64,000 nucleotides of DNA from positions 1 through 64,000 of the forward strand of contig JACQYS010000017.1 in the NCBI GenBank assembly GCA_016208105.1, in the 5' to 3' direction. Position 1 is the stretch's first letter; every line of letters starts with the position of its first letter. A program made the translations under genes and the position numbers. This DNA is from Desulfovibrio sp. (GTDB lineage: Bacteria; Desulfobacterota; Desulfovibrionia; Desulfovibrionales; Desulfovibrionaceae). Positions 66 to 33,863 of this stretch are shown here, in pieces. The notes below the pieces were generated by a model. It was not told where the DNA came from. It did not search any database and saw nothing but the letters and a program-made list of their open reading frames with translations.

Positions 66-204
66 GGCGAGCCTCCTCAACAGTCTAGATTCTTTCTATA
101 AAGTATGGAAATTGCGGAGCGAAGGCAATAGCCACGTTTTTCCTAGCACAATCCGTATGTTTATTGGTATAGCTATTCCAAAGACTATTTATGCGGAGGG
201 AAGT

Positions 205-4822: not shown

Positions 4823-5491
4823 TCAGCTCTCCTTCTTCACGGCCAAGCTCACCCCATCCCCGACCGCAGTCAGACATGCGTCCACCCTGGAATCGCAGCG
4901 TAAAAAATCGTTGAAGGCCCTGACGGCCCGGGTGTCCGGATCATCCACGGCCTGGTCGATCACCCGGCCGTACCACAGAGTGTTGTCCACAACGATCAAC
5001 CCGCCGGGACGCAACAGGGTAAGGCAACGCTCGTAGTAGTTCCGGTAGTTCACCTTGTCCGCGTCGATGAAGGCCATGTCGAAGGTTTCAGCGAAACCCG
5101 ATGCCAGCACAGTGTCCAGGGTGGCCAGTGCCGGAGCCAGGCGCAGCTCGATCTTTCGTTCCACCCCGGCCTCGCTCCAGTAGCGCCTGGCCACGCTTGT
5201 CCAGGATTCGGAGATGTCGCAAGCCAGCAGGTATCCGTCTTCGGGCAGGGCCAGGGCAGTACACAGGGAGCTGTATCCGGTGTAGACTCCTATCTCTATG
5301 GCTCGCCGTGCCTGGATGAGTTTCACCAGGAGCATGAGAAAGCGTCCCTGGTCCCAGCCTATGCGCATATTCGCCTTGGGGTCGGTGTCGGTCTCGGCCC
5401 CCAGGCGCTTCAAAATGTCCGGTTCATCGGGCTGCATGGCCCGCACATAGGCGATAAGGTCCTCGGTGATGCACAGAGGCTTGGTGGTCAT
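4823..5491 (-). CDS. SAM-dependent O-methyltransferase (family 3, catechol-type)
   Basis: A 222-residue cytosolic enzyme of the caffeoyl-CoA/catechol O-methyltransferase family (Methyltransf_3). The SAM-binding motif is IEIGVYTGYSSLCTALALP, and FIDADKVNYRNYYE with VVDNTLWYG carries the metal ligands typical of this cation-dependent group. The ATG at 5489-5491 has GGAG about five bases upstream; the frame continues to 5671 but that part would overlap the divergent lysE-type gene. Its substrate is not deducible. It is followed after one base by mscS in the same orientation. Confidence 0.88.
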   Translation of the reverse strand: MTTKPLCITEDLIAYVRAMQPDEPDILKRLGAETDTDPKANMRIGWDQGRFLMLLVKLIQARRAIEIGVYTGYSSLCTALALPEDGYLLACDISESWTSVARRYWSEAGVERKIELRLAPALATLDTVLASGFAETFDMAFIDADKVNYRNYYERCLTLLRPGGLIVVDNTLWYGRVIDQAVDDPDTRAVRAFNDFLRCDSRVDACLTAVGDGVSLAVKKES

Positions 5492-5563
5492 GGCTGCTCC
5501 GCGTCTTGACAAGGTGCTCTGCCTGGGTTTTCTAGCACCTCCTCCATCCGGAAGAAACCGCCC

Positions 5564-9381: not shown

Positions 9382-10863
9382 CTAAGGGTTGTAGGCGCCC
9401 AAAGCTTCTGTCACTGGGCCCGAGGCAAGTATGCGGCCGTGCTCGAGAACCAGGGCGTGATTCACGGCCGAGGGAATCTCAAGCGGATTGTGGGTGACCA
9501 TCACCAGATTCTTGCCGTGGGCGGCAAGGTCGTCCAGGAGGGCCAAAATTCCGCTTCGAGCCCGTGGGTCTAGACCCCCCAGCGGCTCGTCCAGCAGGAT
9601 GACCTCTGGGTCAAAGGCCAGGGCCCTGCCGATCATGGTTTTTCGGGCCTGCCCCTGCGACAGGGTGGACATAGGCCTGTCCGCCAGAGGTGACAGCCCC
9701 AGCCTGTCCATCCAGCTCGCGGCCGTGGCCAGCATGTCGGGGGTTGGTTCCTCGTAGAGCCCGAAGCTGCCGAAAAAGCCGGAGACAAGCGCTTCGCGCA
9801 CCGTGAATCCGTGAGGATATTCCGCCTGCCATTCCCAGGAGACAAGGCCGATATGGGAGCGCAAATCCCACAAGCTGACCGGTTCCGCCAGGCCGAATCG
9901 CGTTATGCTGCCCGAAGCGGGATGCAGATCCCCGGCCAAAAGTTTCACGAAGCTCGACTTTCCAGCACCGTTTCGCCCGGCCACAACCCAATGCTGGCCC
10001 GGCTCAAGGGTCCAGTTGATGTCCGTGAGCACCTCGTTGCCGGAAAGAACCACACTTGCTTCACGCACTTCCAGGAGCGCCGGACCGGGAGGTGCCTTTG
10101 CTGGAACGGCCCGGCGAGCTTGCCGGACAGGAGAATGGCGTTTCGCCATTTCCTTGAGGCTGCCGCGCATCACCGCCCTGCCGTCCTCAAGCAGCGTGGC
10201 GTCAAAGCCCAAGTCAGGCAGGCTCGCGGGATGGTGGGTAGCGGCCGCCAATCCGACTCCCTGCCCGGCCAGCCGCTCCAACACACTGTGCAGCAGCCTT
10301 CTGGAAGAGACGTCCAGACCGTCGGTGGCCTCGTCCAGAAAAAGCCACTGCGGAGAGCGAACCATGGCCCTGGCCAAAAGAACAGCCATTGCCTGCCCCT
10401 GGGACAGTTCCTGGAACGGACGGTAGGCAAGCTCGGAGAGGCCCAGGGTTTCGAGTGCTTCCAGGGCGAGGCGCCGCTCATCTTCGCCCACTGTGCCGGA
10501 AGGTAGCGGGGAATCCGTCAGCCCGGACACAGCAATCAGCCAGCCCGAAGGGTTCCAGCCTCTGCGCCGATACAGGTCGCGCAGGTCGGCCCCGGCAAGA
10601 CCGATTCGTTCGCGAGCTTCTATGGGGCTTGGCGTGACCTGCCCATCCACGATGTAGAGCCGTTGCCCCGCGTAGCCGCCGCCCGGAAGCTGATCTGGCC
10701 AGATTTCTCCGCGGGCAAGACGCAACAAGGTGGACTTCCCGGCTCCGTTGCCGCCCACCAAAGCCACTCTCCCTCCCGGGGGAAGATGCCACGATACACT
10801 GTCCAGGATGGGGGTGCCGCTGCGGCTCACCCGGACGTTGTCGAGTATGATCTCAAGACTCAT
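9382..10863 (-). CDS. Double ATP-binding-domain ABC protein, ModF-like
   Basis: About 493 residues with two tandem ABC ATPase domains. Domain 1: Walker A GGNGAGKST (about 37-45), signature LSQGQ, Walker B WLFLDEATDGLD. Domain 2: Walker A GRNGAGKSS, signature LSQGQARK, Walker B VILLDEPLGGLD. There are no membrane segments. The layout and the second-domain start resemble ModF/PhrA, an ATPase linked to molybdate or photorepair genes, whose true role is unclear. I take the ATG at 10861-10863 rather than the TTG two codons upstream. It is cotranscribed with cysQ and divergent from the response regulator at 10975. No permease is nearby. Confidence 0.75.
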   Translation of the reverse strand: MSLEIILDNVRVSRSGTPILDSVSWHLPPGGRVALVGGNGAGKSTLLRLARGEIWPDQLPGGGYAGQRLYIVDGQVTPSPIEARERIGLAGADLRDLYRRRGWNPSGWLIAVSGLTDSPLPSGTVGEDERRLALEALETLGLSELAYRPFQELSQGQAMAVLLARAMVRSPQWLFLDEATDGLDVSSRRLLHSVLERLAGQGVGLAAATHHPASLPDLGFDATLLEDGRAVMRGSLKEMAKRHSPVRQARRAVPAKAPPGPALLEVREASVVLSGNEVLTDINWTLEPGQHWVVAGRNGAGKSSFVKLLAGDLHPASGSITRFGLAEPVSLWDLRSHIGLVSWEWQAEYPHGFTVREALVSGFFGSFGLYEEPTPDMLATAASWMDRLGLSPLADRPMSTLSQGQARKTMIGRALAFDPEVILLDEPLGGLDPRARSGILALLDDLAAHGKNLVMVTHNPLEIPSAVNHALVLEHGRILASGPVTEALGAYNP

Positions 10864-32238: not shown

Positions 32239-32541
32239 TCAACAGCAGGTGGAACCGCCGTCTCCCCCGCAATCACACGTGGGAGGTCCTCCGGAAATCC
32301 AACCATGGATGATGGCCCTGGCGCATCCTACCCCCTGGCTCACGGATATCGCTTTCTCGCGGCAGTTGAGGGCGCAGGCTCCGCATTCCATGCAGGCGTC
32401 CAAATCCTCTATGCTGGCTTTGCCTGTCCCGTGCCCGAACACCCCATGGGGACAAACCTCGCGGCAGACGCCGCAGCCCGTGCAGGCTTCCTGATCCAAG
32501 CTAAGGGTTGCCACTCCCTCAATGTATCGCAGTCCCTTCAT
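32239..32541 (-). CDS. hgcB: HgcB, mercury-methylation ferredoxin
   Basis: A 100-residue protein with two [4Fe-4S] sites: Cys20-x2-Cys23-x2-Cys26-x3-Cys30 and Cys50-MECGAC-x3-Cys60. Additional cysteines are Cys73 and a terminal Cys99-Cys100 pair. The CMECGAC phrase and the C-terminal vicinal cysteines are diagnostic for HgcB, which delivers electrons and Hg(II) to HgcA. The ATG at 32541 follows a G-rich ribosome site; the frame extends to 32583 into hgcA. It starts 22 bases after hgcA stops. The hgcA neighbour makes the identification very strong. Confidence 0.95.
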   Translation of the reverse strand: MKGLRYIEGVATLSLDQEACTGCGVCREVCPHGVFGHGTGKASIEDLDACMECGACALNCREKAISVSQGVGCARAIIHGWISGGPPTCDCGGDGGSTCC

Positions 32542-32563
32542 CGTCCCCCCCGGAAATGAACCA

Positions 32564-33733
32564 TCACAAGCCCGCGAGTCCAAAGCGCCAAAGAATCACG
32601 GCAAGTATAAGCCCGCCAGCCTGGAAAGGAAGCGCCCGGCGCATCTCTTTCTCAACGCCGGAGGGGGAAGTGAACGTGGAAGAGCCGGTGAAGTTCATCC
32701 CGTACCAGGAACCCGCCACCACGCTGCCAAGCCACAGGCCGGCACTGGTGAGGCCAGGCACTCCCAGTGCGAGCACACCAAGTCCGGCCATGGCGCCGGC
32801 CACTGCACCCTTGAAGCTGAAAGAGCGCCCGGGCAGCCAGGGAAGGGTCAATGGGGTGAGCACATTCCCAGCCACGAACCCAAGTGAGTAGGCGGCAAAG
32901 CCGCTCCACAACCCGAGCCAAGCCCGGGAGAAGGAAAAAACATCCACTCCTATCCCGGCCAGAACGAACAACGCACAGGCCAATTGCGCCATGGTCTTTC
33001 GCTCGTTGGCGAATTCCACCAGACCGACCACCACACGCTCCAAGGCCGGGAAATGCACCCGGCGCATGTGCGGGGTGGCCTTCATGCCGGCTGCGAGAAA
33101 GGCCCGGACATCCGAGGCGCGCACCGGACCAAACACGACCCGGAATCCCGTGGAGGCCTTGACATCGTGTCCGGCAACGCCAGGCGCGCCAAGCTGGGGC
33201 ACCACCACCTTGCGATGGTTCACCAGCTTCTCAAGGCCCACGGCACGAATCCGCGAGACGAGCTCCGCTGTGCCAAAGGTTGTCTTACCTGCCGCGCACC
33301 ACACGTTCACACCCTTGGTGTCCAGCACCAGTATCCAGGCGTCCAAACCTGACAGCTCTTTGCGCAGGGAGTCGAAACTGAGCTTGTAGTTGGCCGTTAC
33401 CAGCACAGGGCTTTCAGGTCCCGGGGTTCCCACTGCGTAGAGGCCGGGAGCAACCCGGTAGCGCCCCCGGCCGATGCCCAGGCGTACTAAAATAGCGCCG
33501 ATTCGGTCTGGCCGTTCGAGACGTGTTATTACTCTGGGGACTGGTCCGATGGGAGTGTTGAGAAGACTGTCCACAAAATGCCATCGCCGGTATCCTGGAA
33601 TTTGCGCCAACTCCGGTATGCCTGTTCCACAGCACGACACGCCCAAATTGAGCGGGACACCGGCTTGGCAGGATGAATCACCACGCGGAACACCCGTATC
33701 CTTGCTCAACAGTGAGTTCAGCTCATTGGACAC
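32564..33733 (-). CDS. hgcA: HgcA, corrinoid mercury methyltransferase
   Basis: A 389-residue membrane protein. The cap-helix motif GVNVWCAAGKTTFG carries the Cys146 that coordinates the cobalt of the corrinoid; N-V-W-C-A-A-G-K is the defining HgcA signature. The first 215 residues form the cytosolic corrinoid-binding domain (RVAPGLYAVGTPGPESPVLV is also conserved), and from about 235 onward five hydrophobic helices anchor it. HgcA transfers a methyl group to Hg(II), forming methylmercury. It starts with GTG 33733; the first 35-40 residues may be too long and a later start is possible, as no ribosome site is clear. The gene order hgcA-hgcB is the usual one. Confidence 0.95.
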   Translation of the reverse strand: MSNELNSLLSKDTGVPRGDSSCQAGVPLNLGVSCCGTGIPELAQIPGYRRWHFVDSLLNTPIGPVPRVITRLERPDRIGAILVRLGIGRGRYRVAPGLYAVGTPGPESPVLVTANYKLSFDSLRKELSGLDAWILVLDTKGVNVWCAAGKTTFGTAELVSRIRAVGLEKLVNHRKVVVPQLGAPGVAGHDVKASTGFRVVFGPVRASDVRAFLAAGMKATPHMRRVHFPALERVVVGLVEFANERKTMAQLACALFVLAGIGVDVFSFSRAWLGLWSGFAAYSLGFVAGNVLTPLTLPWLPGRSFSFKGAVAGAMAGLGVLALGVPGLTSAGLWLGSVVAGSWYGMNFTGSSTFTSPSGVEKEMRRALPFQAGGLILAVILWRFGLAGL

Positions 33734-33863
33734 AGGGGCATTATCGCAAGAAACCGACTGGACCGCCGGTTGTTTGGGTGGTCAGCAGGATTGTATCGGC
33801 TTACCGTTCATTTCATTCATGGCAAATGCTTGCCTCTCTCCCGTGCATTTTGCAAGATGGGGC

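Follow-up and report, generated by a model that had tools for sequence, protein, structure and literature searches.

The closest described relatives of the locus reported here are the HgcA and HgcB proteins of Pseudodesulfovibrio mercurii ND132 (PMC7305189 and PMC11588087). S-adenosylmethionine methylates the reduced corrinoid of HgcA (PMC11588087), the Cys of the cap helix ligates the cobalt, and the methyl group goes on to Hg(II) (PMC7305189). Table 1 of the 2026 review PMC13188914 lists HgcA (NF040863, CU) and HgcB (GVGU) as high-confidence predicted selenoproteins, credited to Haft and Gwadz 2023. In this work we analysed an hgcA-hgcB locus in a stretch of 64,000 nucleotides (the window; Desulfovibrio sp., assembly GCA_016208105.1, contig JACQYS010000017.1, positions 1 to 64,000), whose HgcA is very likely a selenoprotein with a Cys-selenocysteine (Cys-Sec) tail. 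It has the predicted Cys-Sec pair, the single Sec and the NF040863 family membership of the Sec-HgcA in PMC13188914. Since that type is already listed there, Sec-HgcA is not new as a kind and is in print as a prediction; its Sec placement here is unusual, the distance to the cap Cys being commonly 110-115 residues in the loci surveyed here and 162 in the window (145-174 in six species of the genus). The Sec-HgcB of the same review belongs to the same operon and likewise places Sec in the mercury methylation system, whereas HgcB of the window has Cys73 at that site.

The interval 32239-33733 contains two genes, both on the minus strand (the plus strand translation is full of stops), and is an intact hgcAB pair, which passes both curated family cut-offs: 408.7 bits against 275 for the NCBIfam model HgcA_corrinoid (NF040863) and 118.8 bits against 99 for HgcB_ferredoxin (NF040864). 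A sequence-only reading of the window had described an adjacent pair with a 22-base spacer, the motif NVWCAAGK at residues 143-150 of HgcA with Cys146, and a terminal Cys-Cys in HgcB; coordinates and translations bear this out and add the strand, which had been left unstated. In the frame of that reading hgcA extends from GTG 33733 to TGA 32564 (389 aa), and hgcB from ATG 32541 to TGA 32239 with cysteines at 20, 23, 26, 30, 50, 53, 56, 60, 73, 89, 91, 99 and 100. The cap Cys (Cys175 in the full-length numbering used below) is invariant across 63 aligned rows. ND132 HgcA also has the cap Cys, the corrinoid domain and the C-terminal helices (47% identity between window HgcA and the deposited model across the aligned part), and ND132 HgcB carries cysteines at the same nine positions from 20 to 73; unlike it, the window HgcB ends in ...CDCGGDGGSTCC.

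The test named in the sequence-only reading was a profile search that might place the first protein with the CdhD/acetyl-CoA synthase corrinoid proteins. A Pfam CdhD match does cover residues 93-212 of the 389-aa version, and structural matches to chains of the corrinoid iron-sulfur protein (CFeSP) were also obtained. The Pfam match is explained by the corrinoid domain that the two families have in common: the CFeSP gamma subunit (CdhE/AcsC; 2ycl, 2h9a) has the same corrinoid-binding fold and 27% identity to HgcA, but it lacks the C-terminal helical domain, and against its family model the window protein scored only 74.1 bits (cut-off 306). Furthermore, hgcA is the sole CdhD match per genome in the seven genomes of the genus. 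Together with the invariant cap Cys, these results lead us to reject the CFeSP identity, and a CdhD/CdhE-like protein of the acetyl-CoA pathway has a negligible chance of being encoded here. Profile, motif, predicted fold and synteny support the identification as HgcA and HgcB, the intactness of the genes and a genetic capacity to methylate Hg.

The same reading had called the pair complete. This holds as far as intactness goes, but ahead of the hgcA start that it proposed 29 codons are absent, which very probably include a Cys-Sec pair. Upstream of GTG 33733 the hgcA frame is open to a TGA at 33784-33782, which is preceded by a Cys codon (TGC), and the same frame continues beyond it to ATG 33820. 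The source genome (4,176,435 bases in 31 contigs) belongs to the genus Fundidesulfovibrio, in common with G001, and in six of seven species of this genus (window, L127, L129, L130, L001, L128) the Cys-TGA lies precisely 12 codons past an ATG. In these six species the TGA is directly followed by PPK or PPR, and the in-frame sequence PPK/PPR-PAV is conserved. An alignment of the seven genus sequences shows a common AGGCAAG at the site of the purine-rich stretch GGGAGAGAGG, a putative ribosome-binding site. The reported GTG start is probably wrong; most likely, ATG 33820 is the true start and translation continues across UGA 33784-33782. With a probability of roughly 0.87 we read the locus as an intact Fundidesulfovibrio hgcAB operon, in which HgcA is a selenoprotein translated from ATG 33820 and its UGA is decoded under the direction of a hairpin; its tail may capture Hg(II).

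The occurrence of the Cys-TGA was surveyed in 134 distinct hgcA loci, from which nine duplicates and L123-L125 (decayed or not hgcA) had been dropped beforehand. This set comprises 55 loci of the family Desulfovibrionaceae and 79 outside it, the latter being the outside part of an 80-locus list picked by similarity to the window HgcA. A Cys codon stood right before the first upstream in-frame TGA in 53 of the 134 loci, and in 51 after two chance-like cases (L043, L076) were dropped: 43/55 in the family and 8/79 outside (L133, with Gly-TGA, is not included in the 43, and L116 and L144, cut at a contig edge, were counted as lacking Cys-TGA). In most Cys-TGA loci C-TGA-GP lies about 13 residues ahead of a conserved PGY block, at a position occupied by CCGP in other lineages; thus the in-frame UGA aligns with a Cys of homologues (C-UGA-PP/GP versus CC-PP/GP). 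For 42 of the 51 loci, Sec and the cap Cys lie 113-115 residues apart, and for the six Fundidesulfovibrio species 145-174; three loci have 131 (L022), 133 (L019) and 158 (L092). On an HgcA tree from which L011 and L118 were left out, the two Sec placements each require at least five changes.

A second sample of 395 genomes drawn from the phylum Desulfobacterota gave 118 over the HgcA cut-off, and 108 of these yielded 110 later loci (four genomes of the own family and six with fragments were excluded). Four of the 110 (L190, L203, L211, L266) were already in the first set, none of them among the 37 or nine loci that follow. The Cys-TGA was present in 38/110 later loci, 37 after L273 was dropped, and nine further loci, chosen by eye, have an equally spaced TGA preceded by a residue other than Cys, which makes 46/110. 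Gly, Thr, Leu or another residue replaces the Cys before a TGA at the usual hgcA Sec place in L193, L208, L210, L215, L223, L236, L252, L254 and L270, and also in L133; in L210, L215, L223 and L252 a Cys is placed after the TGA rather than before it.

For 38 loci of the common placement, the proportions of synonymous and nonsynonymous differences (pS/pN) were 0.70/0.32 over the six codons that precede the TGA and 0.54/0.30 over the 13 that follow, versus 0.33/0.37 and 0.33/0.39 in shifted frames, a coding signal on either side of the TGA; all sequence pairs were pooled, so these values are descriptive. In 34 of the 38 there is no start codon between the TGA and the conserved block.

A hairpin resembling a selenocysteine insertion sequence (SECIS) follows the UGA of the window. 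It was assessed by a geometric criterion: a stem of 5 pairs or more without mismatch (one G-U permitted), a loop of 4-8 nt with a G within its first three, and a loop start 14-24 nt past the TGA. The criterion was fixed with the first 51 loci in view and then applied unchanged to the later loci. The window hairpin has this geometry, as do those of 47/51 Cys-TGA loci, whereas control codons in the same genes show it in 17.2% of cases and CC[GP] motifs of Cys homologues in 13/83; when 6 pairs are required, the corresponding values were 44/51, 6.1% and 4/83. Among the later loci, the hairpin was found in 33/37 and 9/9, against 14.4% and 20.0% of the respective control codons and 4/43 Cys motifs, and with 6 pairs in 24/37 and 5/9, against 5.0%, 6.6% and 1/43. 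Across an alignment of 39 common-placement loci, 38 of them distinct, the stem is paired in 94.3% of cells and five of the six pairs vary on both sides; covariation was 0.488 versus 0.170 in shuffles (0/500 as high) and at most 0.114 when the stem was slid. In the six genus sequences the stem is paired in 94.4% of cells versus at most 41.7% when slid. Free energy was dropped as a SECIS test in favour of the geometric criterion because it does not discriminate in these GC-rich genes. The upstream inverted repeat was also considered as an operator; this was set aside, since the repeat follows an in-frame TGA and is seen again at further Cys-TGA loci, for which a SECIS is the better reading.

Of the machinery needed for such decoding, tRNA-Sec, SelB and SelA were over cut-off in 7/7 genomes of the genus, and the own genome also carries a formate dehydrogenase gene with one internal TGA (Table 1).

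The relation of the published ND132 protein to the Sec site was derived from 17 loci of a Pseudodesulfovibrio-like clade (so named by inference). Counting from 21 codons past the TGA places Thr60, Cys93 and Ala153 in 17/17 of these loci, Thr66 in 16 and Val91 in 14, and gives HgcA lengths of 336-339 aa; a GTG is present at codon 21 past the TGA in 7 of the 11 loci checked. For ND132 HgcA, PMC7305189 numbers Thr60, Thr66, Val91, Cys93 and Ala153, with the first nine residues outside its model, the deposited model contains 329 residues, and a 37 kDa HgcA is reported in PMC11588087 (2024). Because the published residue numbering and the lengths fit this count, the N-terminus of the ND132 HgcA studied so far most likely lies downstream of the UGA, which leaves the protein without the tail. 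Its published numbering begins after the UGA site, whereas the window HgcA has 13 residues up to the Sec, and a longer tail.

Several observations weigh against a selenoprotein with a functional arm. The seventh genus species (L131, genome G002) lacks the TGA and has an HgcA tail with seven Cys-Cys pairs; this genome retains tRNA-Sec, SelB, SelA and a TGA-containing formate dehydrogenase. For the 12-codon genus leader the coding signal is weak (pS 0.58, pN 0.39), covariation among the six genus sequences was equalled or exceeded in 234/500 shuffles, and by folding energy the hairpins have a median rank of 0.32 among codons of the same genes (z-score -0.61 for the window). The ND132 protein, tail-less by its numbering, is reported to be active in E. 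coli lysates (PMC11588087), and therefore the chemistry can proceed without the tail. Finally, decoding of the UGA in this organism is a prediction from sequence.

Some of these points would also fit another explanation, in which HgcA starts downstream of the TGA (for example at GTG 33733), ATG...TGC-TGA is a separate short leader peptide or a chance frame, and the pair has nothing to do with selenium. In-frame GTG and TTG codons are indeed available 3' of the TGA in the window, the leader signal is weak, and the active ND132 protein is numbered from a codon 3' of the UGA position of its likely kin. However, no start codon downstream of the TGA is common to the genus, and in L127 the first one comes only 52 codons on, within the conserved region. 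A downstream start is also at odds with the in-frame conservation of the residues right after the TGA in six species, with the match between the TGA and the Cys of other lineages, and with a hairpin frequency far above that of the controls. We consider it improbable.

An AlphaFold2 model of the full-length HgcA had a mean predicted local distance difference test (pLDDT) score of 85.6; the corrinoid domain was well modelled and residues 1-61 were under 50. Among PDB entries the published HgcAB model 9a0b matched best, with CFeSP chains next. Five long C-terminal helices (274-289, 297-324, 334-352, 356-380 and 386-415) are expected to span the membrane. In the proposed mechanism, translation would start at ATG 33820, and SelB with tRNA-Sec would decode UGA 33784-33782 as Sec, directed by the hairpin 3' of it. 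The predicted product would begin with M1-x10-C12-U13-PPK, the tip of a disordered tail some 60 residues long that includes one more Cys-Cys pair; behind the tail would come the corrinoid-binding domain, with cap Cys175 as the expected cobalt ligand, and then the five helices. HgcB would be the partner ferredoxin that supplies electrons. The Cys-Sec/Cys-Cys arm would capture Hg(II) and hand it on, like the presumed role of the terminal Cys pair of HgcB, and by this analogy the disordered arm may bind Hg(II). The arm may be of importance when Hg(II) is scarce, or a different metal may be its target. Judging from its genes, the strain would make methylmercury.

The protein could also be a selenoprotein whose tail is used for redox chemistry, for docking to the membrane or for binding a different metal or metalloid, because hgcAB has a native function other than methylmercury formation. 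The length and Cys content of the tail differ among species, a tail-less protein is active, and carriers of hgcAB are no less susceptible to Hg than others (PMC7305189). On the other hand, pairs of the Cys-Cys or Cys-Sec type typically bind soft metals, and in the published work methylation depends on the Cys pair at the end of HgcB. Such a role is a serious contender, to which we assign somewhat less than an even chance. Extra Cys-Cys pairs occur in the arm of four of the six Sec-bearing Fundidesulfovibrio species. Sec-less HgcA tails with several Cys-Cys pairs were also seen in L104, L114, L140, L013, L015, L027, L028 and others, with six pairs at most (L028).

A second type of in-frame TGA was observed in hgcB: in nine loci (L014, L021, L024, L035, L037, L050, L063, L069, L070) GVG-TGA stands at the place of Cys73, and the frame continues to the terminal Cys pair in eight of them, with a further stop in L037; this corresponds to the GVGU form in PMC13188914. 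None of the nine has the hgcA Cys-TGA; a mutual exclusion of Sec-HgcA and Sec-HgcB was discounted because the nine loci form one HgcA clade. Two hgcA genes have a TGA inside the conserved frame, off the Sec place (L118 of G038 at ~5490-5492, L011 at ~10110-10112), which points to a broken gene or a sequencing error. L123 (G241 C3:25500-36000) is a decayed hgcA with two weak HgcA-model pieces and an internal TAG. In L092 (G036) and L119 (G010) hgcA was over the cut-off with no hgcB match in the fetched stretch, which for L092 reaches only ~1.5 kb downstream.

The claim that the gene pair occurs in a minority of desulfovibrios stands for the family, where 55/288 genomes were over the HgcA cut-off, and fails for this genus, where 7/7 genomes carry hgcA. 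In all seven species the divergent 254-aa gene, hgcA and hgcB are found together, and genes for a flavin reductase, DinB and a transglycosylase lie within ~9 kb, in an altered order in L001 and L128. On a tree from which 14 loci (duplicates, broken, non-hgcA) were left out, the seven genus HgcA proteins form one clade (Shimodaira-Hasegawa approximate likelihood ratio test, SH-aLRT, 100), which joins five further Desulfovibrionaceae (94) and is separated from most of the family; taken as a whole, the family's HgcA proteins do not form a single clade (9 changes). With this synteny and a single clade, horizontal gain is not needed to explain the locus within the genus. No Pfam match was obtained for the longer frame of the divergent gene, its MotA-like matches all being below threshold. 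In the genus genomes MerA-like matches were all under the cut-off and MerB gave no match in the seven, as did its control, so that the MerB result carries no weight. The plasmid comparison gave no match and the sigma-70 scan 0 sites, and the own genome yielded no 16S gene. Among the papers searched, none joins Fundidesulfovibrio with hgcA and none on a Cys-rich HgcA tail was found, and on hgcA with selenocysteine or selenoproteins there was nothing further.

Table 1. Positions of the features of the hgcAB locus in the window and of the selenocysteine-related genes in the same genome
Feature	Position	Strand	Remarks
hgcB	32239..32541	-	100 aa; two CxxCxxCxxxC motifs, Cys73, terminal Cys-Cys; NF040864, 118.8 bits
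hgcA, full-length	32564..33820	-	418 aa with TGA read as U (predicted Sec13); start in the sequence-only reading GTG 33733
Cap-helix motif NVWCAAGK	33284..33307	-	residues 172-179 of 418; Cys175, equal to Cys146 in the numbering of the sequence-only reading
SECIS-like hairpin	33752..33771	-	7-pair stem (one G-U), 6-nt loop GGUCCA, loop 17 nt past the UGA
UGA, predicted to be read as Sec13	33782..33784	-	adjoins Cys12, context SC-U-PPK; Cys-TGA in 6/7 genus species and 43/55 family loci
Purine-rich stretch GGGAGAGAGG, putative ribosome-binding site	33833..33842	-	12 nt ahead of ATG 33820
Divergent gene, putative protein of 254 aa	33864..34628	+	beside hgcA in 7/7 genus species (synteny)
tRNA-Sec	C23:64550-64638		own genome
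SelB	C19:63102-64982		own genome
SelA	C19:55731-57101		own genome
Formate dehydrogenase with one internal TGA (Sec)	C20:78806-81820		own genome

Selenocysteine has a very high affinity for mercury. A wider interpretation, which we put forward tentatively and at slightly less than even odds, is that in most hgcA-bearing Desulfovibrionaceae and in about two fifths of the sampled Desulfobacterota loci the native HgcA has a Sec, mostly as Cys-Sec, within a disordered arm at its N-terminus, which takes up Hg(II) and delivers it to the corrinoid. The purified and modelled ND132 HgcA would be without this arm, so that Hg delivery and selenium dependence would have been overlooked; in Fundidesulfovibrio the arm would be longer, with the pair at its tip, and one species would have swapped the Sec for seven Cys-Cys pairs. 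If the UGA is translated as Sec, gene prediction that ends a frame at TGA cuts hgcA short in many of the organisms that carry it, and Sec is in the piece that is lost. In that case mutant and enzyme work with the short ND132 protein would need re-reading, the route of Hg(II) to the corrinoid would become directly testable, and methylmercury formation would be tied to selenium supply. The whole genus Fundidesulfovibrio (7/7 species searched) joins the organisms genetically equipped for Hg methylation.
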